NCBI GenBank assembly: GCA_017557525.1
Contig: JAFYYN010000086.1
Location: 1-34,021, forward strand
Length of the DNA: 34,021 nucleotides
Reading direction: 5' to 3'
Source of the DNA: Lachnospiraceae bacterium
GTDB taxonomy: Bacteria > Bacillota > Clostridia > Lachnospirales > Lachnospiraceae
Each line of letters starts with the position of its first letter. Position 1 is the first letter of the stretch. The notes below the pieces were generated by a model, which saw only the letters and a list, made by a program, of their open reading frames with translations, was not told where the DNA came from and did not search any database. A program made the translations under genes and the position numbers. Of this stretch, positions 2,683-19,111 are shown one piece after another.

Positions 2683-5600
2683 ATGAAAAAGAAGAAGTCT
2701 AACAGCGCAAGAAACAAAAAAATCATCATTGCAGTAGCCGTTGTAGTTGTTCTTATAGCTATACTTGTGCTCCTGTCACTGAGACCTGTTAAGAATTATT
2801 CCGAAAAGTATGCCGGAACTAATCTTGACGTGGATGTTGAAGGAATGGAGAGAACCGGTACATACAAGCTGTATGTAATGGAACATCAGGGCGCAGCTAA
2901 GCCTGCACAGTCCGTTGATGTTAATCTTTCTAATGTTGAAAATGCAGGTACAGGTTTGGTAGGACCTTATACAGGTGAGAAGAGCCAGACAGGTGACGTG
3001 CTTACTGAGATCAATTCCTTTGCTACATGGAAGGTTAATGTTCCCGAAGCAGGCTTCTATTATATTTATATAGAATACCTTGTACCTCAGTCACACGGTG
3101 TTCCTGCTGAGCGTTCACTCCTTATCAATGACGAGCAGCCTTTCCTTGACGCAAAGAACCTTTCATTCACCAGGATTTGGACAGATGCAGGTGAGAAGAA
3201 AATCGATAACCAGGGTAACGAGATCAGACCCAGTCAGGTAGAAGTATTTGACTGGCAGAATACATATCTTCGTGATGACAGAGGATATATAGCTGATCCT
3301 TACATGTTCTATTTCAAAGCAGGCGAGAACACCATCACTTTAGGTGGCGAAAATGAGCCTCTTGCTATCAGAAAGATCAGTCTTACTCCTGTACAGGATC
3401 TTCCTACATATGAGCAGTATTACGCTGCATGCTATAAAGCTCCCGAAACTATTTCAGACGTTGCAAAGAATTATATACAGCAGGTTCAGGGCGAGGATTC
3501 TACAATCCGTTCTGAGTCTTCACTTTATGCAAAATATGACAGATCATCACCCAGTACACAGCCTTCAAGCGTAACTAACACCGTACTTAACTACACTGGT
3601 GGTGAGGCTTGGAATATTAACGGCCAGTGGATCCAGTGGGATTTTGAAGTACCTGAGGATGGTTTCTATAACATCACCATCAAGGGCCGTCAGAATTATT
3701 CAAGAGGTAACGTAAGTAACCGTAAGGTTTATATCGACGGCGAAGTTCCTTTCAAGGAGCTCGAGCAGGTTTCATTCGCTTATGACAACAACTGGGATCT
3801 TAAGACCCTTGGTTCAGATGATGAGCATCCTTACTATTTCTGGTTAGAAAAAGGAAAACATACTTTAAGACTTGAAGCTACCATGGGTGACCTTGGTGAT
3901 ATCTTACAGCAGATTGAGGATTCTACATTCAGACTTAATCAGATGTACAGAAAGATCCTCGTTTACACAGGTGTTTCACCTGACCAGTACCGTGACTACC
4001 ATATAGAGAAGGTTTATCCCGAAGTTATGGAAGCTATGGAGCTTGAAATGAAGCGTCTGTACAAGATCGTTGATGATTATGTAGCATACAGCGGTCAGAA
4101 AGCTGAGAATATTGCTCCTGCACAGACACTTGCACAGCAGCTTGAGCGTTTCGTTGAGAAACCCGAGAAGGTTACAATAGAGTTCTCAACATTTAAGGAT
4201 AACATTACAGCACTTGGTACTTCTACACTTAACCTTACTACAACAAGACTTGATGTTGACTATGTAGTAATTAATGGTATTAACACTGAGCCCGAGAGTG
4301 ATGGCGAAAACATCTTCTCTAAATTATGGCATGAGATCAAGTCCTTCGTTGCATCATTCTTCGTTGATTACAACTCAGTCGGCGATGTTTATGATGGCGA
4401 AGTACTTAAGGTTTGGGTAACAACAGGTCGTGACCAGGGTACAATCCTTAAGTCAATGATCGATGATACATTTACACCTCAGACAGGTATTCCTGTTAAC
4501 GTAGAGATCGTTATGGCAGGCTCACTGCTTAACGCAGTTATGGCTAACCGTGGTCCCGACGTCGTACTTACAGTTGGTTCTGACCAGCCTGTAAACTACG
4601 CACTCCGTGGTGCAGCAGAAGATATCACTCAGTTCTCTGACTGGCAACAGGTACTTGATCCTGAAATCTTTACCGAGAGTTCATATTATCAGTATGAGCT
4701 GACAGATGAAAACGGACATGTAGGCATCTATGGTCTTCCTGAGACCCAGACCTTCAATGTTATGTTCTATCGTAAGGACGTTTTACAGGAACTTGGTTTT
4801 GTTTACACAGCAGATGATCCTGAGACACAGGATCCTACAACAGGTATTAAGGAAGGCGATGCAAAGCCTCCCAAGACATGGCAGGAGCTTATAGAAATGC
4901 TTCCTACCATCCAGGGTAACAACCTTTCAGTTGGTATACCTTCAGCAGCAGGTTCAAGTTCGACAGGTACTGCTTCAACAGCTATCATGTCAACATATCC
5001 TGACCTTTCATTATACTTCACACTGCTTTATCAGAACGGCGGTACAATGTATAACGAAAAGGGTACAAAGACAACAGTTAACGACGAAGCCGGAATGGCA
5101 GCATTCGATCAGTATGTAAGATTCTTCAATGATTACGGTCTTCCTACTATCTACGATGCAACCACCCGTTTCCGTCAGGGCGAAATGCCTATCATCGTTT
5201 CACCATACTCATTGTACAATACCTTGATGGTATCAGCTCCCGAAATCCGTGGTCTCTGGGATTTCACAGTTGTGCCCGGTACAATCAGGACAGATGAAAA
5301 CGGAAAAGAGATACTTGATTACAATGCTCATATTGCAGGAGCTGCTACCATGATGATCTCAACCGATAATGAAGAGATCAAGAAGAACGGTTGGGAGTTC
5401 ATGAAATGGTGGGTAAGCGAAGAAACCCAGACAAGATTCGGTCGTGAGATCGAGGCTCTGCTCGGTGCTTCAGCAAGATATGCAACAGCAAACAGAAAGG
5501 CATTCAAGAACCTTTCATGGAGTGCAGAAAATATCAAAGTACTTGATGATCAGTGGCAGCATACAGTTGGTATCGCCGAAGTTCCCGGCGGATACTTCAC

Positions 5601-5751
5601 AGGACGTCATATTTCAAATGCTATCCGTAAGGTTATCAATGACAGAGATGATACACGAGAAACAATCATTGACTACTCACGTCTGATCGATGACGAGATT
5701 GTCAAGAAACGTCGAGAGTTCGGTCTCCCGATGTATGAGGATGAAGAATAA
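2683..5751 (+). CDS. Membrane-anchored fusion of two carbohydrate-binding-like domains with an ABC extracellular solute-binding domain
   Basis: A 1,022-residue protein. Residues 12-32 form one hydrophobic segment after a Lys-rich start, with no lipobox Cys, so it should be a signal anchor with the rest outside the cell. Two related beta-sandwich-like segments follow, at about 40-235 and 275-445. Each carries an aromatic/VPExGFYxI strand motif (WKVNVPEAGFYYIYIEY; WDFEVPEDGFYNITIKG), a disposition resembling CBM6/35-type sugar-binding folds; this assignment is by resemblance only. After a helical linker, residues from about 571 to the end are a type I solute-binding protein (LKVWVTTGRDQG, NRGPDVVLTVGSDQPVNYA, GLPETQTFNVMFYRKD, GWEFMKWWVSEETQ). 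Ordinary solute-binding proteins have 400-550 residues, so the fusion is unusual. ATG 2683 follows AAGAGG. It is the first gene of the operon and probably captures a glycan for the permeases just downstream. Confidence 0.85.
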   Translation: MKKKKSNSARNKKIIIAVAVVVVLIAILVLLSLRPVKNYSEKYAGTNLDVDVEGMERTGTYKLYVMEHQGAAKPAQSVDVNLSNVENAGTGLVGPYTGEKSQTGDVLTEINSFATWKVNVPEAGFYYIYIEYLVPQSHGVPAERSLLINDEQPFLDAKNLSFTRIWTDAGEKKIDNQGNEIRPSQVEVFDWQNTYLRDDRGYIADPYMFYFKAGENTITLGGENEPLAIRKISLTPVQDLPTYEQYYAACYKAPETISDVAKNYIQQVQGEDSTIRSESSLYAKYDRSSPSTQPSSVTNTVLNYTGGEAWNINGQWIQWDFEVPEDGFYNITIKGRQNYSRGNVSNRKVYIDGEVPFKELEQVSFAYDNNWDLKTLGSDDEHPYYFWLEKGKHTLRLEATMGDLGDILQQIEDSTFRLNQMYRKILVYTGVSPDQYRDYHIEKVYPEVMEAMELEMKRLYKIVDDYVAYSGQKAENIAPAQTLAQQLERFVEKPEKVTIEFSTFKDNITALGTSTLNLTTTRLDVDYVVINGINTEPESDGENIFSKLWHEIKSFVASFFVDYNSVGDVYDGEVLKVWVTTGRDQGTILKSMIDDTFTPQTGIPVNVEIVMAGSLLNAVMANRGPDVVLTVGSDQPVNYALRGAAEDITQFSDWQQVLDPEIFTESSYYQYELTDENGHVGIYGLPETQTFNVMFYRKDVLQELGFVYTADDPETQDPTTGIKEGDAKPPKTWQELIEMLPTIQGNNLSVGIPSAAGSSSTGTASTAIMSTYPDLSLYFTLLYQNGGTMYNEKGTKTTVNDEAGMAAFDQYVRFFNDYGLPTIYDATTRFRQGEMPIIVSPYSLYNTLMVSAPEIRGLWDFTVVPGTIRTDENGKEILDYNAHIAGAATMMISTDNEEIKKNGWEFMKWWVSEETQTRFGREIEALLGASARYATANRKAFKNLSWSAENIKVLDDQWQHTVGIAEVPGGYFTGRHISNAIRKVINDRDDTRETIIDYSRLIDDEIVKKRREFGLPMYEDEE

Positions 5752-5790
5752 GATTGTTTACAGCAAGAGAATAATAAAAGGGAGAGTTTT

Positions 5791-6729
5791 ATGGGCGAGT
5801 ATCTGAAAAAGTATTTCACGTTGAGAAAACACAACGTGAGCACTGCATGGAAAAAAGCAAAGTTAGCAAAGAACTGCTATCTGTTCCTGCTTCCGTATGC
5901 AATCATTTTCTCGATGTTCTACGTATATCCCGTAGTTGCATCAATTTATTACAGCTTTACTTATTACAACATCCTGGAGTCCCCCAGATTCCTCGGATTT
6001 GCTAACTACATCAGCTTAATTCTTGAAGACGATATCTTCCTTATCGGTCTTAAGAACACACTGATGATAGCTATCATCACAGGACCTTTGGGATACCTGT
6101 TATCATTCCTTTTCGCATGGCTCATAAACGAACTTCCCAGAGCCGTACGAAGCGTAGCAGTTATCGTATTCTACGCACCTTCGATCGCAGGTACCTGTTA
6201 CACCATCTTCTCTGTATTCTTCAGAGGCGATGCTTACGGTTATGTAAATTCGATCCTTATGGATATGGGTATCATCGATACACCTATCCTTTGGTTCATA
6301 AATCCTCAGTACATGCTTCCTATATGTATGGGCGTTATCCTCTGGATGAGCCTTGGTACCGGATTCCTTTCATTCGTTGCCGGCCTTCAGGGTGTTGACA
6401 GATCCTTATTCGAAGCAGGTATGGTGGACGGTGTTAAGAACAGATGGCAGGAGCTCTGGTTCATCACCCTTCCCAGTATGAAGCCCATGCTTATATTCGG
6501 TGCGGTTATGGCCATTACCCAGTCTTTCTCAGTTCACGACGTTACCGCTGCACTTTGCGGATTCCCCAGTACAGACTACGCAGCACATACAATCGTTTCC
6601 TGTCTGATGGACTTCGGTTTCACCCGATTCGAAATGGGTTATGCATGTGCTATAGCAACCGTATTATTCTTGTTAATGATCGTATCTAACAAGGCAATTC
6701 AAAGTCTATTAAGGAGAGTAGGAACCTGA
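5791..6729 (+). CDS. Sugar ABC transporter permease, LplB/MalF type (first pair)
   Basis: A 312-residue inner-membrane permease with about six transmembrane segments, the first near residues 32-52. The ABC-contact EAA loop is visible at about residues 210-232 (EAGMVDGVKNRWQELWFITL, then PSMKP), where the cytoplasmic ATPase docks. Start ATG 5791 follows AAAGGGAG. It lies 39 bases after the binding-protein fusion and 1 base before the next permease, so the three form one transport unit. Family knowledge says such pairs import oligosaccharides; the substrate is not readable here. No ATPase gene is present in the window. Confidence 0.92.
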   Translation: MGEYLKKYFTLRKHNVSTAWKKAKLAKNCYLFLLPYAIIFSMFYVYPVVASIYYSFTYYNILESPRFLGFANYISLILEDDIFLIGLKNTLMIAIITGPLGYLLSFLFAWLINELPRAVRSVAVIVFYAPSIAGTCYTIFSVFFRGDAYGYVNSILMDMGIIDTPILWFINPQYMLPICMGVILWMSLGTGFLSFVAGLQGVDRSLFEAGMVDGVKNRWQELWFITLPSMKPMLIFGAVMAITQSFSVHDVTAALCGFPSTDYAAHTIVSCLMDFGFTRFEMGYACAIATVLFLLMIVSNKAIQSLLRRVGT

Positions 6730-6730
6730 T

Positions 6731-7639
6731 ATGAGTAAAAAAGCAAACGCTAAAACAGCAAATTATTACAAACCTTATCATAAGCCGCTTATTAGACGTA
6801 GAAAGCCTAACAGATCAGTAGGCGGTGATGTTGGTCTTTACATTTTCCTTGCACTTATGGCTATCGTCATGGTATTCCCGCTGGTATACGCCGTAGCCAA
6901 TGCGCTTAAGCCCTTGGATGAGCTGTTCAGGTTCCCTCCGAAAATCTTCGCCCAGAACCCGACACTCGATAACTTCTCCGACCTGTTCGTAACACTTGGA
7001 AAGTCATGGGTAACATTTACAAGATACTTATTTAATACAATATTTATTACCTTCGTTGGTACCGCAGGACATCTGCTTATCGCATCAATGGGTGCATTCG
7101 TTCTTGCAAAGTACGATTTCCCCGGAAATAAGCTGTTCTTCAAGATAGTAACCGTAGCGATCATGTTCGTACCTGCTGTTACACAGGTTCCTAACTACAT
7201 CTTACTTAGTAAGTTAGGCTGGATCGATACTTACTTCTCAATCATCATTCCTGCATTCGCATCACCTATGGGTATGTTCCTTATGAAGCAGTTCATGGAA
7301 GGTCTTCCTACAGCTCTTGTTGAGGCTGCTAAGATCGACGGTGCTTCAGAGTGGAGAGTTTTCACAAACATCGTTATGCCTAACGTTAAGCCTGCATGGA
7401 TGACACTGATCATCTTCTCAGTACAGGGTCTTTGGAATAACAACGGTGGTATGTACATCTTCTCAGAGCAGAAGAAGACTCTTCCTTACGCAATGGGCCA
7501 GATCCAGGGCGGTGGTATCGCAAGAACAGGACAGGGCGCAGCTGTTACAGTTGTACTTATGATAGTTCCTATCGCAATATTTATTTTCTCAGAGAGCCAG
7601 ATCCTTGAGACAATGGCTAGCTCAGGTATGAAGGATTGA
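6731..7639 (+). CDS. Carbohydrate ABC transporter permease, AraQ/MalG type (first pair)
   Basis: A 302-residue inner-membrane protein with about six transmembrane segments and an EAA loop (EAAKIDGASEWRVFTNIVMP, then NVKP). It is the usual partner of an LplB-type permease and forms a heterodimer with the upstream gene product. The start ATG is one base after the upstream stop, which points to translational coupling; AAGGAG lies 15 bases before it, inside the preceding gene. The N-terminal 35 residues are basic and cytoplasmic. Its C-terminus (LETMASSGMKD) matches the usual end of this family, which typically closes with a SSGMK/GVKG-like tail. Confidence 0.92.
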   Translation: MSKKANAKTANYYKPYHKPLIRRRKPNRSVGGDVGLYIFLALMAIVMVFPLVYAVANALKPLDELFRFPPKIFAQNPTLDNFSDLFVTLGKSWVTFTRYLFNTIFITFVGTAGHLLIASMGAFVLAKYDFPGNKLFFKIVTVAIMFVPAVTQVPNYILLSKLGWIDTYFSIIIPAFASPMGMFLMKQFMEGLPTALVEAAKIDGASEWRVFTNIVMPNVKPAWMTLIIFSVQGLWNNNGGMYIFSEQKKTLPYAMGQIQGGGIARTGQGAAVTVVLMIVPIAIFIFSESQILETMASSGMKD

Positions 7640-7654
7640 TACAGGAGGCATATT

Positions 7655-9181
7655 ATGAAGAAGTTTGGAATTAAAATTGCTGCTCTTACGATATGCTCAC
7701 TGTTCGCTTTGAGTATACCTATGGGCGTGGTAAGTGCAAAGGCTGAGACAAGCTACACTTACAACTATGATTACTGGGGTGAGTTTACGGATTCACCTGA
7801 CTCATACACACCTGCGTTGTGTGTTACTTCATCAGAGATCCTTGATGAAAACGGTGAGGTTGGTCTTGACAAGGTTATGAGAAACCCTGAAGGTCTTACC
7901 TGCTACAAGGACATGATCTATGTCTGCGACACCGGTAACAACAGGATTCTTGAGATGAAACTCGTTGACGGACCTAAGCTTCAGCTTGTCCGCGTTATCG
8001 AAGAATTTTCAGGTCACGAGAATAATACATTTAACGGACCCAGCGATGTACAGATTTCAGAAGAAGGCTGCTTCTATATCGCTGACAGAGGAAATGCACG
8101 TATATTAAAGCTTGATAAAGACTTAAATTACATCTGTGAATTTACCAAGCCTAATGATGCATCTCTTGATAAGGATCTTGAGTACAAGCCTTCAAAGATC
8201 GCTATCGATACAGCAGACCGTGTTTACTGTGTAGCTAACGGTATTAACAAAGGTCTTGTAAAGTATGAGGCTGATACAACATTCTCAGGCTTTATCGGTG
8301 CAACTCCTGCAACTTATAATTTCTGGGACTGGTTCTGGAAGCACTTCGCAACAGAGGCACAGCGTGAGAAGATGCTTAACTTCGTTCCTACAGAATATGA
8401 TAACCTTTATATGGATAGGGAAGGTTTCATATACGTAGTAACCGGCAAGCCTTCAGAAGAGGATATTAAGTCCGGCGCACAGAACGTTGTAAGAAAGCTT
8501 AACCTTCTCGGAAATGACATCCTTGTACGTAACGGTAACTGGGATATTTACGGTGACCTGTACATGGGTTCAGGCGGAAACATTTCCGGTCCTTCAAGAT
8601 TTACCGATGTTACCTGTCTCGATAATGACATTTACATCTGTCTTGACAAGACCCGTGGCCGTCTCTTTGGTTATGATGATCAGGGACGTTGCGTATTTAT
8701 CTTCGGTGGCACAGGTAACATGGATGGCTACTTCAAGAACGTAGCAGCTATCGACCATCTTGGAAATAACCTTTTCGTTCTTGACAGCAGTGACTGTGCA
8801 ATAACAGTATTTATGCCTACCGAGCACGGTAAGCTTATATTCCAGGCTATCGACCAGTTTGATCTTGGTCAGTACGATGACGCAGAGTTAACATGGCGTA
8901 AGGTTTTGGAAAATGACGGTAACTGTGACCTTGCTTATATCGGTATCGGTCGTTCACTTTTAAGACAGAAGAGATACAGCGAGGCTATGGAATATTTCGA
9001 GCTTAAGCATGATGCACAGAACTATTCAAAGGCATTCAAGCAGTACAGAAAGCAATGGGTTGAAGATCATATCGTTCTTATCGTAATTGTTCTCCTCGTA
9101 CTGATACTTGTTCCTTTCGGTATCGGCAAGTTAAAGAGCATCAAGCATGAGATTGATACAGCTGACATTTTTCAATTATAA
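7655..9181 (+). CDS. Exported NHL-repeat protein with a TPR-like segment and a C-terminal membrane anchor
   Basis: A 508-residue protein. Residues 1-30 are a signal peptide (basic start, hydrophobic core, probable cleavage after SAKA). Residues about 70-385 contain NHL-type beta-propeller repeats, seen as NPEGLTCYKDMIYVCDTGN, GPSDVQISEEGCFYIADRGN and later copies with the same spacing. Residues about 395-455 look like a TPR (DDAELTWRKVLENDGNCDLA, then IGIGRSLLRQKRYSEAMEYF). Residues about 467-487 are a single hydrophobic segment followed by a short basic tail, so the propeller should face outside and be anchored at its C-terminus. ATG 7655 has GGAGG seven bases upstream. It sits 15 bases after the permease. 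Its function is not known; the propeller could bind glycan or scaffold the transporter (inference). Confidence 0.8.
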   Translation: MKKFGIKIAALTICSLFALSIPMGVVSAKAETSYTYNYDYWGEFTDSPDSYTPALCVTSSEILDENGEVGLDKVMRNPEGLTCYKDMIYVCDTGNNRILEMKLVDGPKLQLVRVIEEFSGHENNTFNGPSDVQISEEGCFYIADRGNARILKLDKDLNYICEFTKPNDASLDKDLEYKPSKIAIDTADRVYCVANGINKGLVKYEADTTFSGFIGATPATYNFWDWFWKHFATEAQREKMLNFVPTEYDNLYMDREGFIYVVTGKPSEEDIKSGAQNVVRKLNLLGNDILVRNGNWDIYGDLYMGSGGNISGPSRFTDVTCLDNDIYICLDKTRGRLFGYDDQGRCVFIFGGTGNMDGYFKNVAAIDHLGNNLFVLDSSDCAITVFMPTEHGKLIFQAIDQFDLGQYDDAELTWRKVLENDGNCDLAYIGIGRSLLRQKRYSEAMEYFELKHDAQNYSKAFKQYRKQWVEDHIVLIVIVLLVLILVPFGIGKLKSIKHEIDTADIFQL

Positions 9182-9200
9182 TGGATGGAGATAAAATAGC

Positions 9201-9860
9201 ATGGCATCAAAGAGATCGATTCGAAGAAAAAAATTGAATAAGTATAAAGATTCCTTGAAGTTTGGCTTCTATTGTATTACCCATCCTATAGATGGCTACT
9301 GGGATCTGACGCATGAAAAACGCGGAACTATGGCTGCAGCAAACACCATACTTTTCGCAACAGTATTTATGCGTATATTTAGCTTAAAGTATACAAGCTT
9401 CATTTTCAACGATATCAACTGGGAAGAGGTTAACATACTGCTTTATGTAGCGACCATCATATTCCCGTTGGCACTCTGGGTAGTAGGTAACTGGGCTCTT
9501 ACCACTCTTTCAGATGGTAAAGGACGTCTGGGTCAGGTATATATGGCGACGTGTTACGGTATGCTGCCTTACCCGATAGTTCAGTTATTCCTGATGATAT
9601 TCAGTAATGTCGTTACTGTAGATGAAGCCGGATTCTATACCACAGTCGGTACCATTACACTTGTTTATTGTGCAATCCTTATCGTTTGTGCTATGGGTCA
9701 GATTCATGAGTATCGTGCAGGCAAGAACGTAATGTTCACGATTTTCTCAATATTTGCTATTCTTGTAGAAATATTCATTCTCTTACTGTTCTTCAGTATG
9801 ATTTCACAGGGTGTAGCTTACATCGTTTCACTTGTAAAAGAAATGCTGTTCCGTATATAA
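9201..9860 (+). CDS. Yip1-family multi-spanning membrane protein
   Basis: A 219-residue protein with about five predicted transmembrane segments (near residues 50-66, 80-103, 120-140, 150-170 and 180-205) after a basic cytoplasmic start. The opening ITHPIDGYWDLTHEKRGTMA and the later YGMLPYPIV motif are typical of bacterial members of the Yip1 family. Yip1 proteins were first known from eukaryotic vesicle traffic; bacterial relatives have no settled function. GGAG precedes ATG 9201. It is 19 bases downstream of the NHL gene and 33 bases upstream of the DUF5696-type gene, so it belongs to the same operon. Confidence 0.8.
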   Translation: MASKRSIRRKKLNKYKDSLKFGFYCITHPIDGYWDLTHEKRGTMAAANTILFATVFMRIFSLKYTSFIFNDINWEEVNILLYVATIIFPLALWVVGNWALTTLSDGKGRLGQVYMATCYGMLPYPIVQLFLMIFSNVVTVDEAGFYTTVGTITLVYCAILIVCAMGQIHEYRAGKNVMFTIFSIFAILVEIFILLLFFSMISQGVAYIVSLVKEMLFRI

Positions 9861-9893
9861 AAACAAAGGCATTAGAAAAGGATTGGAGTAACA

Positions 9894-12512
9894 ATGAGAA
9901 GAAAAAAGAGTGAAGAATTAAAAAAAGAGAGAAATGACAGAATAAAACAGTTCTTGAAGGACATGATAGCTCCTACAATCTTCGTCGTTGTAGTTGTATT
10001 TGTTCTCTACAAGATGGCTACATATGAGAGACCTGCTGAAGAGAATGACATTCCTGCTACATATGCTTATGACGGAGCAACAGATCCTGTTTTACTGGAA
10101 AATAATTTCCTCAAATTTGAATTGGATCCTGCAACAACTCAGTTTACAGTACTTCATAAAGAAACCGGCAGAGTTTGGACTTCTAACCCTGATATAAGCA
10201 TTGAGACTCAGGCTCTTCAGGAAGAGAAGAACAGATTGCAGTCACTTCTTTACATCACTGCTTCTGAGCAGACAGGTAAGATCCTTGACTACGATTCATT
10301 TTCAAAGAGCGTAGAAAATGAGATCTACAAGGTTGAGAAGGTATCGGATACAGAAGTTGTTATCCATTTCTCAATCGGTAATGTTGAAAAGACTTATATG
10401 ATCCCTCCTGTAGCACGTGAGCAGGAATTCCTTGATTACGTACAGCAGCTTACCGATCTTGGTGACACAGCTGCAGCCAAGGAAGTAAAAAATCGTTACA
10501 AGAAATGGGATAAGGATAAGCTCTCCAAGGCTGATAAGGAAAACTTCGATGCAATCGTTGAAAGATATCCCCTTGCAGCAGAAGAAGTTATCTATACATT
10601 AAGAGATGGTCTTAATTCTGTTACAATGAACAAGCTGTTGGCAGCTTTTGAATCGATCGGATACGATCAGGCTAAGTATGAAGAGGATCTTGCTCTTGAT
10701 ACTCAGGAAAAGACTTCCGATAAGCCTGTTTTCAACCTTGATCTTCATCTCGTTATCGATGGCGATCAGCTGGTTGTATCAGTACCTTTCAATTCAATCC
10801 AGAATCCTAAGAAGTACCCTATAACAAAGCTTACTCTGCTTCCTTTCTTCGGAGCAGGTTCAAAGGCTGAGAACGGATTCCTGTTTGTTCCTGAAGGCGG
10901 CGGCGGAATCATTAACTTCAACAATCAGAAGACCACACTTCAGTCATACTCATCAAGAGTTTACGGTTGGGATCTTTGCCTTATCCGTGATTCGATCGTA
11001 CATGATCCTATTACAAACTTCGGCGTATTCGGTATTGCAAAAGAGGATGCTTCCTTTATATGTGTACCCGGTGACGGTTCATCATATGCAACCATCCAGG
11101 CCGATATCAGCGGTAAGACAAACTCATTCAACTATGTAAACTGTGTATACGATCTTTATCAGAGAGAGCAGTTCGATGTAGGTTCGATTTCTTCATCAGA
11201 TATCTTTAAGTACATCGATCAGCTTCCTCAGGATGAAAAGATAGAGCAGAGATACATCTTCGTTGATTCTAACAGCTATGTAGATATGGCTAAGGAATAT
11301 GAGACATATCTTAAGAAGACCTACGGAGAGAAGTATTTCGAGATGAAGACAGATACCAATGCTCCCGTTAACGTAGAGATTGTTGGTGCTGTTGACAAGA
11401 CAGAACAGATTTTAGGTATACCTGTTTCCCGTCCTCTTGAGCTAACAAGCTTTGAGGAGGCAGGACAAATTGCAGATGATTTAAGCGCAAACGGATTTAA
11501 AAATGTAAACATCAGGTACACCGGCTGGTGTAACGGCGGTGTAAACCAGACAGTACTCTCAAGCGCAAAGCCTGTATCAAAGCTTGGCGGCAAGAGCGGT
11601 CTTAAGGATCTTTCAAGCAAGCTTTCCGGCATGGGCTACAAATTAGCACTTAACGGTATCACAACACTGGCACTTGACAGTAACATCTTTGACGGATTCT
11701 TCTCATTTACTGATGCAGCAAAGAACATCAGTGAGGAAAGAATGGAGCTTCATAAGTACAGTGCAGTTACATATGCATTAAGAGAAGGTACTGAAACATT
11801 CTACCTCCTTCATACCAAGCTTATCATGGAATATGCTGATAACTTAAGAGAAGCAGCAGATAACTTTGGCGCAGGGGTAGCTTTCGAAGACATCGGTAAG
11901 GATATTCCTTCAGACTTCTATGAGGATGATTATCACAGCCGTGAGAATGTTAGAAAACTTCATCAGGAACTTCTTAAGAAATACAATGACGAAGGTAAGT
12001 ACACTGTTGTTGAAGCAGGTAATGAGTACGCTATCCCTTATGTAGACATGGTTGTTGATATGGATCTTAGCGGAAGTAATTACACCATCATTGACTACAA
12101 CGTTCCGTTCCTTGAGCTTGCTATTCACGGTTATGTAGATTATACCGGTGAATCTCTCAATATCTGCGGCGATCAGAATGAAGAGCTTCTTTATTCTGCA
12201 GCATATGGCGCAGGCTTAAGTTTCACAGTAATGAAAGAGTCAGCATTTACTCTTCAGGACACTTTATATACTCACTACTATGGTTGTGATTATGATAAGT
12301 GGAAACATAATATGATCGATATCTACACAAGATACAACAACGAACTCGGTCATATATTCAACCAGAAGATGACAGACCATAAATATCTTGCACCCGGTGT
12401 ATCAGTTACAACATATGCCGATGGCACAAAGGTTTATGTAAACTTTAATTACGCTGCTTATAACGAAGGCGGAGTATCAGTTCCCGCAAGAGATTATAAG
12501 GTTGTAAGATAA
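9894..12512 (+). CDS. Large membrane-anchored surface protein resembling DUF5696 proteins
   Basis: An 872-residue protein. A basic N-terminus is followed by one hydrophobic segment (residues 25-42) and no lipobox, so the bulk should lie outside the membrane. Residues about 60-470 are rich in beta strands. Residues about 490-800 show the alternation of a TIM barrel (GFKNVNIRYTGWCNGG, MGYKLALNG, GVAFEDIG, YTVVEAGNEYA, NVPFLELAIHGYVDYTGESL). The NVPFLELAIHGY motif and the overall size match my memory of DUF5696 proteins that sit beside sugar ABC transporters. The acidic residues Glu665/Asp666 and Glu707 lie at barrel-strand ends and would be candidates for a glycosidase active site; this is inference. 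ATG 9894 follows GGAG. The gene sits between the Yip1 gene and the second permease pair. Confidence 0.7.
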   Translation: MRRKKSEELKKERNDRIKQFLKDMIAPTIFVVVVVFVLYKMATYERPAEENDIPATYAYDGATDPVLLENNFLKFELDPATTQFTVLHKETGRVWTSNPDISIETQALQEEKNRLQSLLYITASEQTGKILDYDSFSKSVENEIYKVEKVSDTEVVIHFSIGNVEKTYMIPPVAREQEFLDYVQQLTDLGDTAAAKEVKNRYKKWDKDKLSKADKENFDAIVERYPLAAEEVIYTLRDGLNSVTMNKLLAAFESIGYDQAKYEEDLALDTQEKTSDKPVFNLDLHLVIDGDQLVVSVPFNSIQNPKKYPITKLTLLPFFGAGSKAENGFLFVPEGGGGIINFNNQKTTLQSYSSRVYGWDLCLIRDSIVHDPITNFGVFGIAKEDASFICVPGDGSSYATIQADISGKTNSFNYVNCVYDLYQREQFDVGSISSSDIFKYIDQLPQDEKIEQRYIFVDSNSYVDMAKEYETYLKKTYGEKYFEMKTDTNAPVNVEIVGAVDKTEQILGIPVSRPLELTSFEEAGQIADDLSANGFKNVNIRYTGWCNGGVNQTVLSSAKPVSKLGGKSGLKDLSSKLSGMGYKLALNGITTLALDSNIFDGFFSFTDAAKNISEERMELHKYSAVTYALREGTETFYLLHTKLIMEYADNLREAADNFGAGVAFEDIGKDIPSDFYEDDYHSRENVRKLHQELLKKYNDEGKYTVVEAGNEYAIPYVDMVVDMDLSGSNYTIIDYNVPFLELAIHGYVDYTGESLNICGDQNEELLYSAAYGAGLSFTVMKESAFTLQDTLYTHYYGCDYDKWKHNMIDIYTRYNNELGHIFNQKMTDHKYLAPGVSVTTYADGTKVYVNFNYAAYNEGGVSVPARDYKVVR

Positions 12513-12535
12513 TAAAGAAAGGGACATAAAACGTT

Positions 12536-13441
12536 ATGAAGAAAGCAAAAAAACTGGCAGGCCTTGAAAAAAGAAAGGCCATATCAGGATACATATTTAT
12601 AGCGCCGTTCATAATCGGTTTCCTGGTATTTATGGTAAAGCCGTTCATCGACTCGTTAATGATGAGCTTCCAGCTGGTTGAACTGTCAGGTGAAGGTTAC
12701 ACCAGAACCTTTAATGGTTTTACCAATTATGATTATGTATTTAATGTAGATTCGCAGTTTAACAGACTGCTGACCGAAGAAATGATAAGAATGGTCATCT
12801 ATACTTTAGCGATCATTGTATTCTCATTCTTCATTTCCATCATCCTCAACCAGAAGTTCCACGGCAGAGGATTGGTAAGAGCGGTATTCTTCCTTCCGGT
12901 TATCCTTTCATCAGGTGTTATCTTAGGACTTGAAGATAATAACTCATATATGCAGGTTATGAAGGATACAGTTGAGGCTACCACACAGGGCATAAGCGTT
13001 TCTGCCGCGGTGGAGTCGATACTGAAGACCATGGATATCGGTGGTGCCGTCTTTGACAAGGTATTCGAAGTTATTGATAACATCTACGATGTTGCGATCT
13101 CCTCAGGTATGCAGATCATCATCTTCCTGTCAGGACTTCAGACCATATCATCAAGTATGTATGAAGCAGCCAGCATCGACGGATGTACAAAGTGGGAGAG
13201 TCTTTGGAAGATCACCTTCCCTATGATCTCTTCACTGTTCCTCGTAAACTGGATCTACACCGTAGTAGACTTCTGTATGAGATCTGATAACCAGGTTATT
13301 TCAAGAGTACAGTTCACCATGATCTCTCAGTTACGTTATGATTACGCATCAGCTATGGCGTGGATTTACTTCCTGGTAGTTGTCGTCTTCGTAGGTATTA
13401 CTTCACTAATCATATCAAAGGTGGTATATTATAATGACTAA
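12536..13441 (+). CDS. Sugar ABC transporter permease, LplB/MalF type (second pair)
   Basis: A 301-residue inner-membrane permease with about six transmembrane segments. The EAA loop is YEAASIDGCTKWESLWKI, then TFPMIS. Between the third and fourth segments there is a longer than usual polar stretch (about residues 130-185, EDNNSYMQVMKDTVEATTQG onward) that should be extracellular and may shape docking of the binding protein. AAAGGGA precedes ATG 12536. It overlaps the next permease gene by 8 bases, so translation of the two is probably coupled. It is the second MalF-type permease of the locus and is clearly different in sequence from the one at 5791. Confidence 0.9.
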   Translation: MKKAKKLAGLEKRKAISGYIFIAPFIIGFLVFMVKPFIDSLMMSFQLVELSGEGYTRTFNGFTNYDYVFNVDSQFNRLLTEEMIRMVIYTLAIIVFSFFISIILNQKFHGRGLVRAVFFLPVILSSGVILGLEDNNSYMQVMKDTVEATTQGISVSAAVESILKTMDIGGAVFDKVFEVIDNIYDVAISSGMQIIIFLSGLQTISSSMYEAASIDGCTKWESLWKITFPMISSLFLVNWIYTVVDFCMRSDNQVISRVQFTMISQLRYDYASAMAWIYFLVVVVFVGITSLIISKVVYYND

Positions 13442-14444
13442 AGGAAAAGCAAAAGTTAATTTCTGGGAGAGAAACAGACTGTCGAACGGATACCTTATGA
13501 GGAAAAAGGTTATGGCCGTTGGTGTAAGTATTGTTCGTTTCATACTTTTGTTCGGACTCTGCTTCCTTATCCTTCAGCCTATCCTGCAGAAGATATCAGT
13601 CAGCTTCATGGAAGAGCAGGATCTGTATAACCCGATAGTTATCAACATTCCGGAACATTTTACAACAGAAAATTACAGGCTTTGTGCTGATCCTCAGATT
13701 ATGGATTACTCAAACGGCCTTAAAAACTCACTTATCGTATCCTTTACAATAGCTATCCTTCAGATCGCTATGTGTACATTGGTTGGTTACGGTTTTGCAA
13801 GATTCAAGTTCCCGTTAAAGAAATTCTGGTTCGCGATGGTAATGCTTGTTATCGTCATACCTCCCCAGACAATTTCTTCATCACTGTATCTGCATTTCAA
13901 ATATTTCGATATCCTCGGAATATTCAAGCTGATAACAGGAGAGACTGTCAACCTGCGTGGTTCCGCACTTCCTTACTATCTGATAAGTGCAGGATGTATG
14001 GGTCTTAAGAACGGATTGTACATCTACATGGTACGTCAGTACTTCAGAAACATCCCTATCGACCTTGAAGAGGCTGCTTACATCGATGGCTGCGGTACCT
14101 TAAAGACATTCGTAAGGATCATGCTTCCTCAGGCTAAGCCCATCATTACATCATGTTTCCTGTTTGCATTTGTATGGCAGTGGACAGATGGTTTCTATTC
14201 ACAGATGTTCCTTTCACAGATCCGTCTGGTTAGTACATCACTTTCAACCATCGTTGACCGTATTGCCGTTTACCTTGCAAGAATTTCAGGTAGTGGTGTT
14301 GAGTCAGCTACAATTTCACCGGCACGTTCAAACCAGATCCTTTCAACAGGTACTCTGATGATCGTATTCCCGTTGATTTTCATCTACCTCGTTGCTCAGA
14401 GACAGTTCGTAGAGAGCTTATCAAGCACAGGTATTAAGATGTAA
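13434..14444 (+). CDS. Carbohydrate ABC transporter permease, AraQ/MalG type (second pair)
   Basis: A 336-residue inner-membrane protein with about six transmembrane segments and the EAA loop EEAAYIDGCGTLKTFVRIML, then PQAKP. It ends SLSSTGIKM, as these permeases usually do. ATG 13434 lies inside the end of the preceding gene and has GGTGG about eight bases upstream. A GSGVESATISPARSNQIL segment between the last two membrane helices is longer than normal for the family. It forms a heterodimer with the upstream permease and probably uses the lipoprotein encoded next (14638), from which it is separated by an internal promoter. Confidence 0.9.
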   Translation: MTKGKAKVNFWERNRLSNGYLMRKKVMAVGVSIVRFILLFGLCFLILQPILQKISVSFMEEQDLYNPIVINIPEHFTTENYRLCADPQIMDYSNGLKNSLIVSFTIAILQIAMCTLVGYGFARFKFPLKKFWFAMVMLVIVIPPQTISSSLYLHFKYFDILGIFKLITGETVNLRGSALPYYLISAGCMGLKNGLYIYMVRQYFRNIPIDLEEAAYIDGCGTLKTFVRIMLPQAKPIITSCFLFAFVWQWTDGFYSQMFLSQIRLVSTSLSTIVDRIAVYLARISGSGVESATISPARSNQILSTGTLMIVFPLIFIYLVAQRQFVESLSSTGIKM

Positions 14445-14474
14445 TAAAATTTTTATTAGATTTTAAAGAAAAAG

Positions 14475-14503
14475 TTGCAATTTTGTAACAAGTATGTTAT
14501 AAT
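14475..14503 (+). promoter_or_regulatory. Internal promoter before the lipoprotein solute-binding gene
   Basis: TTGCAA (14475-14480), a 17-base spacer and a consensus TATAAT (14498-14503). It would give the binding protein its own high-level transcript with a leader of roughly 125 bases. Confidence 0.8.
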
Positions 14504-14517
14504 TCCATCATTGTATG

Positions 14518-14614
14518 TAAACTGTTTTGGATCTGGGGGTCCCGGAAAATCTAAAAAGCCCCCACATCATGCAGTTTAGATAAATTAGCAATAATTAAAT
14601 AAAATTATTAGCTA
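14518..14614 (+). promoter_or_regulatory. Structured 5' leader of the lipoprotein solute-binding gene
   Basis: TAAACTG (14518-14524) pairs with CAGTTTA (14572-14578), and inside it TGGGGG (14534-14539) pairs with CCCCCA (14559-14564), leaving a 19-base purine-rich loop. A second imperfect hairpin follows: TTAGCAATAATT (14585-14596) with AAATTATTAGCTA (14602-14614). The ribosome site AAGGAGG (14626-14632) is left free. No T tract ends the first hairpin. It may be an mRNA stabiliser, a processing site or a regulator; it matches no riboswitch I recognise. Confidence 0.55.
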
Positions 14615-14637
14615 GTTCCTATGAGAAGGAGGAAAAA

Positions 14638-16146
14638 ATGAAAAAGAGAAACTTACAGAGAATCTTTGCTGCATTCATGGCAACAGCTATGGTAATCGGT
14701 GCAACAGGATGTAACGACAAGAAGGATGATAAGGCTAGTGATACTACCCCTACTCCTGAAACAACTAAGGCAGCTGACGAGGATAAGAAGGATCCTGAGA
14801 CTACAAAGGCTCCCGATACTACTACTCCCGAGGCTACACCTGAAGTTACAGCAGAGCCTACTCCTGAAGAGCCCGCTATCGATCTCGGTGGTATGACTAT
14901 TATCATCCGTGACTGGTGGAATCCCGCTCTTGACGCAGATTATCCTGCAGAAGCTAAGAGTGATTATGAAGAGGCAAGAAATGCTTACCGTGAGGAAGTT
15001 ATGGAGAAGTACAACTTCTACATGAGAGAAGCAGCTATATCGGATTGGGGCGGAGCTAACACAGACTTCGTTGACTACGTTACATCCGGTGGTGATGATC
15101 AGAACTACATCTTCACCCTTCATACAGATCCTACTACAGCTAATGCTATGGCATCAGGTCTTATGTATGATCTTTCAACACTTGACTGTCTTGATTTCTC
15201 AGAGGACAAGTTCCAGAGAAATAAGTTACATGAGCAGTACTGCTCAGGTAGCAGTATCTATGCATTCTTCCCTGGCTTCTCGGAGCCCAGAGATGGTGTA
15301 TACTTCAACAAGCAGGTACTTAAGGATGCAGGTATTGATCCTAACAGCATTTATGATGCTCAGAAGAACGGAACATGGACATGGGATATGTTCGATGAGA
15401 TCATGAGCAAGTGCCAGAGAGACCTTGACGCAGACGGCGTAGATGATATCTATGGTCTTACCCTTAATGAGGGCGTTATGACATCTGCAGCAGTATTCTC
15501 TAACAATGGTTCTTATATCGCTAAGGGCGCTGACGGAAAGTACAGCTACAACCTTGAAAGCGCTGAGACCCTTGAAGCTCTTAACTGGTGTGTTGACATG
15601 TTCACAAAGTATGATCAGCATGATCCTGAGGGCGCTACCTGGGATTACTATCAGGAAGAGTGGAGAACTGGTAAGGTTGCATTCCTCGTTGAGCAGGAGT
15701 ACGCAGCAGCACCTGGTAACCTCTTTGAGAACACAGACTTTGAGATGGGCTTTGTTATGTTCCCTAAGGGACCTAAGGCTGATCACTATGTTGCAGCTTG
15801 GGCTAACAATGCATATGTAATTCCTGCATGTTATGATGCTGACAGAGCTTGGAAGATCGCATTTGCTTGGAATGTATGGACAAATCCTGCACCTGGCTAT
15901 GAAGATTTCAATGGCTATATCGAGACAGCTTCTAATGGTAACTTCGACGAGAGAGCACTTGCTGAGACACTTCCTCTTATGTGTGAAGACAAGTCTGGTA
16001 TCGTTACATTCCATGACTTCGTTGCTGGTATCGAGATGGGTCCCGACCTTACATGGAAGATCGGCGCTAACGCTGATGTTACAGCTATCGTAGAAGCTTG
16101 CCGTGATAAGTGGAAGGCTTGCATCGATGAGGCTAACTCAAAATAA
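14638..16146 (+). CDS. Lipoprotein extracellular solute-binding protein of a sugar ABC transporter
   Basis: A 502-residue secreted lipoprotein. The signal peptide ends in the lipobox ATGC with Cys25 as the lipidated residue. Residues about 30-78 form a Thr/Pro/Glu-rich flexible linker (TTPTPETTKAAD and similar units). The rest is a family 1 solute-binding fold: a start strand IIIRDWWNP, NQVL-like PRDGVYFNKQVLKDAGIDPN, NGTWTWDMFDEIMSKCQRD, VWTNPAPGYEDFNGYIE. ATG 14638 has the strong site AAGGAGG five bases upstream. Because it has its own promoter and leader and sits right after the second permease pair, it is the probable receptor of that pair. Substrate is unknown; the downstream GH43 gene suggests an oligosaccharide with xylose or arabinose (inference). 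Confidence 0.92.
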   Translation: MKKRNLQRIFAAFMATAMVIGATGCNDKKDDKASDTTPTPETTKAADEDKKDPETTKAPDTTTPEATPEVTAEPTPEEPAIDLGGMTIIIRDWWNPALDADYPAEAKSDYEEARNAYREEVMEKYNFYMREAAISDWGGANTDFVDYVTSGGDDQNYIFTLHTDPTTANAMASGLMYDLSTLDCLDFSEDKFQRNKLHEQYCSGSSIYAFFPGFSEPRDGVYFNKQVLKDAGIDPNSIYDAQKNGTWTWDMFDEIMSKCQRDLDADGVDDIYGLTLNEGVMTSAAVFSNNGSYIAKGADGKYSYNLESAETLEALNWCVDMFTKYDQHDPEGATWDYYQEEWRTGKVAFLVEQEYAAAPGNLFENTDFEMGFVMFPKGPKADHYVAAWANNAYVIPACYDADRAWKIAFAWNVWTNPAPGYEDFNGYIETASNGNFDERALAETLPLMCEDKSGIVTFHDFVAGIEMGPDLTWKIGANADVTAIVEACRDKWKACIDEANSK

Positions 16147-16178: not shown

Positions 16179-16214
16179 AAAGGGACGGTGTTTTCCGGGC
16201 ACCGTCCCTTTTTA
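16179..16214 (+). terminator. Strong Rho-independent terminator closing the transporter operon
   Basis: AAAGGGACGGTG (16179-16190) and CACCGTCCCTTT (16200-16211) form a perfect 12-bp stem with a 9-base loop, followed by more T. Its stem core GGGACGGT resembles the dispersed repeat seen elsewhere in the window. Confidence 0.93.
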
Positions 16215-16318: not shown

Positions 16319-17920
16319 ATGCCAGTTTTAGCACATAACCCCATATTACCCGGGTTTTTCCCTGATCCTTCTGCCTGTGCGGTAGGGGATGACTACTACA
16401 TTGTAAACTCGTCATTTACATATTTCCCCGGTCTGCCCATCCTTCACAGCAAGGATCTGGCTCATTGGGATCAGATAGGAAATGTACTTACACGTGAGTC
16501 CCAGCTGCCCTTAAAGGATGCAGAAGTTTCCCGTGGTCTTTTTGCTCCGACGATACGTTATCATAAGGGTACATTCTACGTAATCTGTACCAATGTTTCC
16601 TTTGGAGGAAATTTTATAGTAACTGCTGATAAGGCGGAGGGTCCATATTCAGAGCCTCATTATATTGAGGGTGCTGACGGTATTGATCCGAGTCTTTTCT
16701 TTGATGATGACGGAAAGTGCTATTACATCGGTACACATCCCAATCCTGAGGGTTGTAAATATGACGGTGACTGGTATATCTATATACAGGAGCTCGATAT
16801 CAAAAATTTTAAGCTTGTAGGTGAGAAGCATAACGTATGGAATGGTGCTATGCGTGGTGTACACTGGCCCGAAGGACCTCATCTTTATAAGAAAGACGGA
16901 TATTATTATATTCTTCATGCAGAGGGTGGTACAGGTCCTGAGCATGCAGTATCAGTAACCAGGAGTAAAGAGGTTTTCGGACCCTATGAGCAGAATTTCT
17001 GCAACCCCATCTTTACTCACAGAAATCTCGGAAAGAGCTATCCTGTGCAATACGTAGGACATGCTGACCTTTTCTCAACTTCTAAGGGAGACTGGTATAT
17101 GGTAATGCTTGCGGTACGTCCAACCCAGGGGTATACAACCATGGGCCGTGAGACCTTTATTGCAGCAGTTACCTGGGAAAATGACTGGCCGGTTGTTAAT
17201 CCAGGACTAGGTCATCTTTCTGATATGCTTAAGATCAAGCTTGACCCTTGTGAACCTGAGGTTGCCAGTTCATCAGAGCCCGGTACCGATAAATATTATG
17301 ATTTCACAAAGATAAAGGAATTTGGTCCCGAAATACTTAAACTCAGAAACCCTGAGCCTGATATGTATGAGCTAATTGAGAACAGAGGTCTGAAATTAAA
17401 ATGCTCAAAGAACCTGATAACCTCTCTGGGAAATGTTTCATACCTTGCAATCCGTCAGGACTGCCACAACTTTGAGATTGGCTGTACCGTCAATACAGAA
17501 AATCTTTGTACAGGTGCATCTGCCGGACTTATCATATTCCAGAACCATAGATTTAATATCAGATTTGAGGTTTCAAACTGGATAGGATATGTTTTGCTTA
17601 ATAAAGATGGCGAGGAGATCAAGTATGAGACCTGTCCTTTGGGAAATATCGCTACAACACTTATTATCCGTGTTATTGGACTAAGAGCTTTCTTCTTTGT
17701 AAGCTCACCGAAGGGCCCCATTTTAGTAGCGGGGAATATTGATATTTCAGCTCTTTCAACAGAGGTTGCTGGAGGTTTTGTAGGCTGTACCTGTGGTATC
17801 TATGCACAGGATTATGATCTTGTACGTGAGATAGATCTCTATGCAGGTTTTAAGGATTTCTATTATAACCGTATGCCAACCACTGATGAAAAACAATACA
17901 TGGAAGAAGATGTACAATAG
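16319..17920 (+). CDS. Glycoside hydrolase family 43, probable beta-xylosidase / alpha-L-arabinofuranosidase
   Basis: A 533-residue enzyme with no signal peptide, so it acts in the cytoplasm on imported oligosaccharides. Residues about 5-310 are the five-bladed propeller: GFFPDPS supplies the general base Asp16, GIDPSLFF the pKa-modulating Asp123 and HWPEGPHLY the general acid Glu185. Residues about 325-525 form a beta-sandwich C-terminal domain like that of two-domain GH43 xylosidases (KYYDFTKIKEFGPEILKLRN onward). Length and the NPILPGFFPDPSA opening fit the xylan 1,4-beta-xylosidase group; whether it prefers xylose or arabinose is not certain. ATG 16319 follows AAAGGAGG. It has its own promoter after the transporter terminator and is followed 12 bases later by the U32-like gene. 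Confidence 0.9.
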   Translation: MPVLAHNPILPGFFPDPSACAVGDDYYIVNSSFTYFPGLPILHSKDLAHWDQIGNVLTRESQLPLKDAEVSRGLFAPTIRYHKGTFYVICTNVSFGGNFIVTADKAEGPYSEPHYIEGADGIDPSLFFDDDGKCYYIGTHPNPEGCKYDGDWYIYIQELDIKNFKLVGEKHNVWNGAMRGVHWPEGPHLYKKDGYYYILHAEGGTGPEHAVSVTRSKEVFGPYEQNFCNPIFTHRNLGKSYPVQYVGHADLFSTSKGDWYMVMLAVRPTQGYTTMGRETFIAAVTWENDWPVVNPGLGHLSDMLKIKLDPCEPEVASSSEPGTDKYYDFTKIKEFGPEILKLRNPEPDMYELIENRGLKLKCSKNLITSLGNVSYLAIRQDCHNFEIGCTVNTENLCTGASAGLIIFQNHRFNIRFEVSNWIGYVLLNKDGEEIKYETCPLGNIATTLIIRVIGLRAFFFVSSPKGPILVAGNIDISALSTEVAGGFVGCTCGIYAQDYDLVREIDLYAGFKDFYYNRMPTTDEKQYMEEDVQ

Positions 17921-17932: not shown

Positions 17933-19111
17933 ATGCCTAAGAAAGAAACAGAATCTACAGATGTAGTAAAGAAAGAAACCCCAAAAACAGCTAAGACAAC
18001 TACAAAGACTGCATCAAAGTCTGAAACAAAAACAGCGGCTAAATCAACAACTAAGTCAACAGCTAAGACCGGAGCTAAAAATATAGTTGATATAACTAAA
18101 AAGACGGAAACCAAAAAGACAACTAAGAAAACTACCAAAAAGCAGGCAGATCCTAATATGAAGATAAGATTCCATCTGCCGGGTCTGCGCTATAACTATC
18201 CTCTCAATATGTTCTGGGTAAGCATGATGAAGACTTATCCTCATTTCTTTAAGGAAAATATTGAGATAGGTTCTTTCTTTGGTTGCTTTCCTTTTGCACT
18301 GTGGAACGGCGGAAGACTTATCATCCACGATCAGTGTGATGAGGAATTTATCGTTAACGTTGTTAAATCCATAAACAAAGAAGGCATCCCTGTACGTTAT
18401 ACCTTCACCAATCCCGTACTTACAGAAGAGGATGTACATGATCCTTACTGCAATTTCTGTATGAAGGCTGCTGACAACGGGATGAACGAGGTCATGGTTT
18501 TTTCTCCAATCTTAGAGAAATATATTCGTGAAAACTATCCTTCATACAAGATCAACAGCAGTACCTGTAAGGAAATCAAGAATGTTGATGACTTAAATGC
18601 TGAGATTGAAAAGGATTATAAGTATGTAGTTCTTGATTATAATCTGAACAATCAGTGGGATATGATCGAGGGTCTTAAGCATCCAGAAAAGCTTGAGGTT
18701 CTTGTAAATACTCTCTGTGTGCCTGCATGTCCGAGACGTGGTGAGCATTATCGCTACATCGGTGAGATGGAGAAAAAGGTTTATGAAAACAGAAAGCTTC
18801 CTCTCGACAAGCAGGAAAAGATTGTTGATACCTGGAGATGTGAGTACGGTGAGTATAATTTCTTATACAAGATCATGAATTATCCTACTTTTATCTCTAA
18901 TGAGATGATCCAGAATGAATATCTGCCGAGAGGTATCAATAACTTTAAGATTGAAGGGCGTACTGCAAATCTGTTCTCACTTATTGAGACTTACTGCTAT
19001 TACATGATCAAGCCTGAGTATATCGGTGAGGCAAGAGTTAGGTTGCTGACCAACCTGCAGGCTTCACACATCGTGCAGGTAAATAAGCCGCGTCCTTCGC
19101 ATTGGCCGTGA
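17933..19111 (+). CDS. U32-peptidase-like protein A with a Lys/Thr-rich N-terminal tail
   Basis: A 392-residue protein and the first of three paralogs in the window. Residues 1-75 are low complexity, made mostly of Lys, Thr, Ala and Ser (KTAKTTTKTASKSETK and similar). From residue 76 it aligns with the other two: FHLPGLRYNYPLN, GSFFGCFPFALWNGGR, YCNFCMKAADNGMNEV, then C262 and C266 in LCVPACPRRGEHY, and NNFKIEGR. The last motif is like the KIEGR signature of U32 proteins, a TIM-barrel group that includes Fe-S-dependent RNA and ubiquinone hydroxylation factors. The usual U32 Cys signature is absent and is replaced by CxxxCPxRxxHY. GGAGG precedes ATG 17933, 12 bases after GH43. Function unknown. 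Confidence 0.7.
   Translation: MPKKETESTDVVKKETPKTAKTTTKTASKSETKTAAKSTTKSTAKTGAKNIVDITKKTETKKTTKKTTKKQADPNMKIRFHLPGLRYNYPLNMFWVSMMKTYPHFFKENIEIGSFFGCFPFALWNGGRLIIHDQCDEEFIVNVVKSINKEGIPVRYTFTNPVLTEEDVHDPYCNFCMKAADNGMNEVMVFSPILEKYIRENYPSYKINSSTCKEIKNVDDLNAEIEKDYKYVVLDYNLNNQWDMIEGLKHPEKLEVLVNTLCVPACPRRGEHYRYIGEMEKKVYENRKLPLDKQEKIVDTWRCEYGEYNFLYKIMNYPTFISNEMIQNEYLPRGINNFKIEGRTANLFSLIETYCYYMIKPEYIGEARVRLLTNLQASHIVQVNKPRPSHWP

Follow-up and report, generated by a model that had tools for sequence, protein, structure and literature searches.

A conserved two-importer cassette in a rumen Lachnospiraceae bacterium and its correspondence to the xylan degradation locus

The 34,021-nucleotide contig JAFYYN010000086.1 (assembly GCA_017557525.1, from a rumen Lachnospiraceae bacterium; here called the window) carries nine open reading frames (ORFs) at 2683-16146, all on the plus strand, that encode two pairs of permeases (P1a and P1b, P2a and P2b), two solute-binding proteins (SBP1 and SBP2), and three proteins that are not transporter parts, with NHL, Yip1, and DUF5696 domains. 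The question raised by this locus is what such a collection does together. The original prediction, whose coordinates we keep, proposed a single machine in which the surface proteins bind or process one large glycan and hand it to two importers. The reading we prefer, with a probability of roughly 0.6, is that the locus forms the transport half of a system for using plant polysaccharide, in this lineage probably xylan, that its two CUT1-type importers borrow a shared MsmX-type ATPase, and that it is the same conserved cassette as xloEFG-X-GH129-axoFGE.

Those gene names come from the xylan degradation locus (XDL) of Caldicellulosiruptor (Anaerocellum) bescii (Athe_0174-0185) and C. saccharolyticus (Csac_2404-2420), in which the order is binding protein, permease, permease, X, GH129, permease, permease, binding protein, and then a glycoside hydrolase (GH) of family 43. 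In the accessible part of the C. bescii study, the operon xloEFG-X-GH129-axoFGE-xynF-xynE-xynD-xyn10A-xynX-xynB is among the xylan-responsive genes, the proximal ones responding about 10- to 100-fold and the distal ones 4- to 9-fold; it is predicted to be under XynR and AraR control, growth on xylan is impaired without MsmK, XloEFG and AxoFGE are given as two CUT1 transporters, and no function is assigned there to X or the GH129 protein (PMC8579813). The XDL operator is bound by XynR, for which 14 target genes are given, with a Kd of 161 nM (PMC12285236). The C. saccharolyticus XDL includes XynF (Csac_2411) and transporter genes Csac_2412 and 2417-2419 (PMC5658599), and the XDL is mentioned by name elsewhere (PMC7142884). 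The earlier statement that this gene order has no defined function is thus out of date, since the described XDL covers the block, and the expression data that the original prediction called for exist for the counterpart, published as one xylan-induced operon (PMC8579813).

A C. bescii-type locus that we fetched (L156/L157) has the window's cassette order, SBP1-P1a-P1b-NHL/Yip1-DUF5696-P2a-P2b-SBP2, and its genes 3' of SBP2 encode GH43 with carbohydrate-binding module (CBM) 6, CBM-GH10, GH39, GH10, an esterase, and GH39. The published operator 20-mer (PMC12285236) lies at L156:1206-1225, ending 150 bases upstream of SBP1, which starts at 1376; in a search of 157 fetched loci, a set to which the window does not belong, it is present only in L156 and L063. 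From the match of order, operator, and downstream enzymes to the published operon, we take the cassette to be the XDL's transport half, with the NHL-Yip1 fusion as X and the DUF5696 protein as GH129. A shared MsmK-type ATPase is a further likeness. Unlike the XDL, the window has NHL and Yip1 as separate genes, an SBP2 gene with its own promoter-like site and terminator, and a GH43 gene apparently standing as its own unit; GH10 is absent from the 23 window ORFs scanned. What was already known, then, is the operon in Caldicellulosiruptor; what this analysis adds is the link of DUF5696 to GH129, the identity of gene X as a propeller-Yip1 fusion, and an RNA lead described below. In the literature searched, the term DUF5696 was found in no paper, and no paper names Yip1 together with either Caldicellulosiruptor and an ABC transporter or xylan and a solute-binding protein.

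The cassette is real and widely conserved, and its occurrence outside Caldicellulosiruptor was followed in two sets of loci, with gene orders taken from a six-frame profile scan. The phylum-wide set comes from an evenly drawn sample of 398 genomes in which DUF5696 has 56 strong matches, 40 of them read here over up to 20 kb each; the named set consists of the 80 best among 576 confirmed relatives, hence is biased toward near kin, and is mostly Lachnospiraceae with other Clostridia and metagenome-assembled genomes of Treponema (L144) and Christensenella (L151). All 40 phylum-wide loci have the order NHL-Yip1-DUF5696-P2a-P2b. So do 74 of the 80 named loci, and contig ends interrupt the other six (L083, L113, L119, L120, L133, L145). 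Cassette genes are co-directional in every locus of both sets (40/40 and 80/80). SBP1-P1a-P1b adjoins this block in 29 of the 40, before it in 25 and after it in 4, and the full nine-gene order with SBP2 next is seen in 11/40 phylum-wide and 59/80 named loci. Strong DUF5696 matches occur in 37 genomes, all 37 of which also have NHL and the SBP1 N-terminal part (Fisher p ~1e-50, uncorrected for genome kinship); outside them, an NHL fragment is found in one genome and SBP1 in two, all on contigs shorter than 9 kb. Fifteen family-level groups in this one-phylum sample have the block. The outcome that would have told against the original prediction, these proteins occurring mostly apart from each other, did not appear in the neighborhood search.

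The genome counts leave out two genomes just above the DUF5696 Pfam cut-off and seven below it, four with NHL matches of 75-85 bits, and six with SBP1 N-terminal matches of 64-157 bits (group f18 and G375); they include G103, in which a 116-bit SBP1 match is truncated by a contig end beside a complete cassette. Copy numbers are lower bounds because three or four candidates were scored per genome. We also read 32 extra regions, made up of 27 with an apparently lone NHL or SBP1 and 5 with weak matches. The appearance of SBP1 or NHL without DUF5696 is mostly an artefact of that scoring, as 15 of the 27 do contain a DUF5696 match; the rest are six contig-end truncations and six true SBP1-P1 triplets. 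Three places with weak DUF5696 were inspected (L187, with a 662-residue ORF, L188, and L189). In group f18 (L185, L186; G007, G054, G093, G127, G157), which has no strong DUF5696 match, SBP1 N-terminal parts stand in ORFs of 384-561 residues, too short for a binding domain.

The NHL and Yip1 proteins belong together, to judge from the strongest evidence for joint action that we have: they form a single ORF in 22 of the 40 phylum-wide loci, laid out as N-terminal helix, propeller, TPR, membrane helix, and Yip1. In the window, the NHL match is above its Pfam cut-off and the TPR match below. The structure model (pLDDT, the model's per-residue confidence, 79.5) has a propeller, a helical TPR part, and a long C-terminal helix, and in the Protein Data Bank it is closest to NHL domains and designed propellers. 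Yip1 family membership (PF04893) is clear against a cut-off of 28.6 bits. Correlations of tree distances, calculated on 29 to 40 loci per gene with the common species history retained, are 0.93 for P1a-P1b and 0.92 for P2a-P2b; NHL scores 0.90 with P2a, 0.89 with P2b, and 0.88 with DUF5696, versus 0.73 with P1a and 0.72 with P1b. SBP1 gives 0.87 with P1a and 0.87 with NHL. By these distances NHL appears tied more tightly to the P2 pair than to the P1 pair, and the NHL-TPR-Yip1 protein may be a scaffold.

The DUF5696 protein has the GH129 fold, at 11-19% identity to NagBb, an alpha-N-acetylgalactosaminidase, and to the GH129-like 3,6-anhydro-D-galactosidase DagB/ZgGH129. It differs in its N-terminal membrane helix, in being ~180-230 residues longer, and in missing the first NagBb Asp: Thr543 of the window protein aligns with the LDGW Asp of NagBb, which is probably the catalytic Asp330, and the 48 rows have T in 25 and S in 18. 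DagB lacks the first NagBb catalytic residue too and is nevertheless active (PMC5698469). Asp360 is conserved in 18 of 18 rows, Asp674 in 17, and Asp734 in 16. Asp674 was compared with the second catalytic Asp (NagBb Asp435, DagB Asp486), in a region without a residue-level match; a search with a profile from the DUF5696 C-terminal half gave no match within the catalytic region of NagBb or DagB, so the conserved acids have no assigned counterpart in either. The Pfam GH129 model PF11308 has no match up to E = 10 in the window protein, and a search with it of 199 phylum genomes gave no matches, nor did the controls, so this is no evidence of absence. Proteins with GH129 and CBM35 in a Paenibacillus, which may or may not be cassette proteins, appear on cellulose only (PMC4867992).

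The importer parts are as expected of CUT1 ABC importers, with a binding protein, two domain-bearing permeases, and a partner ATPase in the genome. No ATPase gene is present within the nine-gene locus; a MalK/MsmX-type ATPase is encoded in the same genome on a separate contig, C42, by a 374-residue ORF (OB_MalK, 61.2 bits). An ATPase encoded elsewhere is a feature in common with other CUT1 oligosaccharide importers that use MsmX/MsmK, as are the binding proteins and permease pairs, whereas here two permease pairs in one block flank a fixed non-transport module. SBP1 is a 1022-residue hybrid with a helix at 14-32 by hydropathy, CBM_35 and golvesin matches below their respective cut-offs, and an SBP_bac_1 match of 79.6 bits at residues 584-916; its N-terminal part is covered by alignment A5. 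All four permeases have BPD_transp_1 above cut-off. SBP2 falls 0.2 bits short of the SBP_bac_1 cut-off, and its translation has what we take to be a lipoprotein-type start. Pfam therefore bears out the predicted two permease pairs, two binding proteins, and three accessory proteins, with SBP2 just below the line, and none of the NCBIfam models listed for the nine proteins is above its own cut-off. At least four tandem SBP2-type genes follow the cassette in L037 and L041, which suggests exchangeable binding proteins serving one importer.

On the substrate, the enzyme encoded beside the window cassette is the GH43. The named set has 258 non-redundant flanking proteins, and the 83 scanned, from the flanks of L072-L107, include GH43 (9), GH10 (7), GH3 (3), GH5 (3), and GH67 (1). 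Xylan is likely the substrate of the window locus. Our reading would then work as follows. Secreted xylanases would cleave the polymer, and the membrane-tethered SBP1, with its carbohydrate-binding-like domains, would retain long pieces of it outside the cell, at the membrane. Branched ends would be trimmed or held by the membrane-anchored GH129-fold protein, which an NHL-TPR-Yip1 scaffold would keep next to the second permease pair. SBP2, in multiple copies in some loci, would pass product to the P2 pair and SBP1 would supply the P1 pair. A stable block with two accessory proteins locked to one permease pair would point to a missing part in the uptake of plant-wall fragments, and the unnamed gene X belongs to a well-studied biomass degrader, C. 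bescii, in which its role can be addressed.

Several observations weigh against this reading. Flank enzymes of the phylum-wide set are varied (GH43 4, GH10 3, GH26 3, GH3 3, GH42 2, GH28 2, among 93 scanned of 135), so xylan is not the sole substrate. The window's own DUF5696 enzyme may be inactive because it has Ala at residue 770 (codon 12201-12203) in place of a near-invariant Glu (17/18 rows in alignment A1, 44/48 in A2); Ala is also found in L072, L073, and L096, and Arg in L100. Six stretches (L174-L177, L179, L180) carry SBP1-P1a-P1b and neither NHL nor DUF5696. In L164-L167, NHL-Yip1 is beside a low-scoring DUF5696 match and the sequence read has no P2 pair; a contig end is close in L164, L166, and L167. 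Gene order is altered in L162, and rearranged or diverged cassettes include some with NHL-Yip1 after the permeases; one locus among L162 and L164-L167 has its DUF5696-type match in a 2239-codon open frame.

Taken literally, the single machine would be a supercomplex in which NHL-Yip1 and DUF5696 bridge both permease heterodimers into one importer of a long glycan. Constant co-direction and co-occurrence in all 37 genomes fit it, as does SBP1 correlating equally with P1a and NHL; we still find it quite improbable, since the modules are separable (the lone triplets, and the 11 of 40 loci without an adjoining SBP1-P1a-P1b within the stretch read), the P1-NHL correlation is lower than P2-NHL, and the translation of P1a, like those of the other three permeases, has what is presumably an EAA-type loop, which would leave each pair able to bind ATPases. 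The single-machine claim is thus partly supported: the genes are kept together, but P1 comes apart from the rest and NHL is nearer to P2. At the other end, the importers might be two independent, co-regulated systems, with the accessory module a surface glycosidase and membrane anchor that makes no importer contact, as the listing of XloEFG and AxoFGE as two CUT1 transporters (PMC8579813) and the lone SBP1-P1 triplets would allow. This is doubtful, because the accessory module is directly before the P2 pair in 40/40 loci while the P1 pair moves, and co-regulation alone does not require so fixed an order. Lastly, DUF5696 could be a non-catalytic GH129 relative that binds or senses glycan, with NHL-Yip1 relaying the surface signal inward for regulation and not transport. 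The replacement of the LDGW Asp (Thr or Ser, 43 of the 48 rows), the loss of Glu770 in the window clade, and the AraC- or LacI-type regulators that flank some loci agree with this, and the conserved Asp360, Asp674, and Asp734 and the activity of DagB count against it; we regard it too as unlikely.

Table 1. Coordinates of the cassette genes and adjoining features in the window
Feature	Position	Strand	Evidence
SBP1 (XloE-like): N-terminal membrane helix, weak CBM35/golvesin-like stretches, linker, C-terminal solute-binding domain	2683..5751	+	
P1a, CUT1-type permease (XloF-like)	5791..6729	+	BPD_transp_1 27.5 bits
P1b, CUT1-type permease (XloG-like)	6731..7639	+	BPD_transp_1 53.6 bits
NHL propeller, TPR-like helices, C-terminal membrane helix	7655..9181	+	Pfam NHL; structure model
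Yip1-domain membrane protein	9201..9860	+	Pfam Yip1 45.4 bits; four hydrophobic stretches
DUF5696 protein, membrane-anchored, GH129-fold	9894..12512	+	DUF5696 605.5 bits (Pfam)
P2a, CUT1-type permease (AxoF-like)	12536..13441	+	BPD_transp_1 32.3 bits
P2b, CUT1-type permease (AxoG-like)	13434..14444	+	BPD_transp_1 38.4 bits
Promoter-like site TTGCAA-17-TATAAT, TG ahead of second hexamer	14475..14503	+	Consensus scan, match alone
Leader hairpin, apical loop CCCGGAAAA at 14541-14549	14518..14578	+	Fold z -5.4, core kept unpaired
SBP2, solute-binding protein (AxoE-like)	14638..16146	+	SBP_bac_1 25.8 bits (cut-off 26); orthologue profile
Terminator-like hairpin and T run 3' of SBP2, loop TTTTCCGGG (16191-16199)	16182..16213	+	Sequence and fold
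GH43 enzyme with GH43_C2 domain	16319..17920	+	Glyco_hydro_43 299.6 bits, GH43_C2 71.1 bits

The predicted short gaps are confirmed by the ORF coordinates in Table 1, at -8 to 39 bases from SBP1 through P2b, except for 193 bases between P2b and SBP2. The promoter-like site in that interval is a consensus match and by itself no proof of function. SBP2 is followed after 172 bases by the GH43 gene, which is probably a separate transcription unit because the hairpin with a T run closes SBP2.

The leader hairpin loop CCCGGAAAA is complementary to the terminator loop TTTTCCGGG; the terminator would expose UUUUCCGGG, for a predicted 9-base pairing; the duplex energy of the two loop pieces is -14.8 kcal/mol. 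We surveyed 81 loci (the window and the 80 named loci), 71 of them readable on both sides. CCGGAA in the leader and TTCCGG downstream are both present in 28, with leader only in 2, downstream only in 8, and neither in 33 (Fisher p 2.4e-10; shuffled expectation ~1.8 and 1.9 of 71), and a sense-swapped control finds both in none and single motifs in 8 and 3. The leader motif lies within a hairpin of at least 5 pairs in 27 of the 28, with differing stem sequences and a mean z of -4.3 over the 28 loci. The six core columns are fixed through motif selection, while the unselected columns adjoining the core pair in 24, 24, and 21 of 27 loci. Requiring a hairpin on both sides, complementary leader and terminator loops occur together in 27, leader only in 2 (L101, L124), terminator only in 1 (L098), and neither in 41 of the 71. 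The SBP2 tree forces at least 9 changes, and in ten independent pairs the two sides change in the same direction 8.8 times on average and in opposite directions never (median p 0.004).

Pairing between 5' and 3' untranslated regions occurs in bacterial mRNA, for example Staphylococcus aureus icaR. SBP2 resembles icaR in having a leader and a 3' end within one mRNA able to pair, and differs in that the pairing would be loop to loop, leader hairpin with terminator hairpin, the window's leader hairpin ending ~60 bases upstream of the start codon. From these patterns we put at even odds that the SBP2 mRNA is closed by a 9-base kissing loop that raises its lifetime or output relative to the upstream permease genes. 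It would be a conserved cis-acting control over how much binding protein is made per permease, and a new conserved form of end-to-end pairing in bacterial mRNA. Against it, 44 of the 71 loci, including Butyrivibrio, are without the pair, and 33 pair-less loci with a terminator show no alternative complementarity (cognate mean 2.85, non-cognate 2.77 bases). In no locus were both loops found to have changed so as to pair in another way, variation being only in columns beside the core. Three close relatives differ at both bases of two leader stem pairs, a result that 61 of 500 shuffles also give. If U-G pairs are allowed, as few as three bases can be left in the terminator loop, a fold that would compete; a hairpin scan permitting G-U pairs consumed the terminator loop, gave no signal (1 of 35), and was replaced by later scans.

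That the hairpin is a generic terminator is not supported, as its 17-base core has a single exact occurrence in the draft genome. Looser core matches, with 2-3 mismatches, number twelve there, of which ten stretches were read by script; C7:5071 resembles a terminator with the same loop and a T run, and the leader chosen for it by the script has no complement. In 200 family genomes, two others match the core with one mismatch and have no T run and no nearby cassette gene, by a strict pattern that misses other stems. Rfam has no window match at gathering score, leader matches being weak and unrelated, and nothing alike was found in the accessible parts of the literature searched for a similar kissing-loop element.

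Beyond the cassette, ORFs at 17933-19111 and 31536-32510 have Peptidase_U32 matches below cut-off, and a 318-residue ORF at 23414-24370 has no Pfam match up to E = 10. Genes of the cyclic-di-GMP signaling type are near the locus, encoding a PAS-GGDEF-EAL protein at 26531-28240 and an HD-domain protein at 29353-31482.

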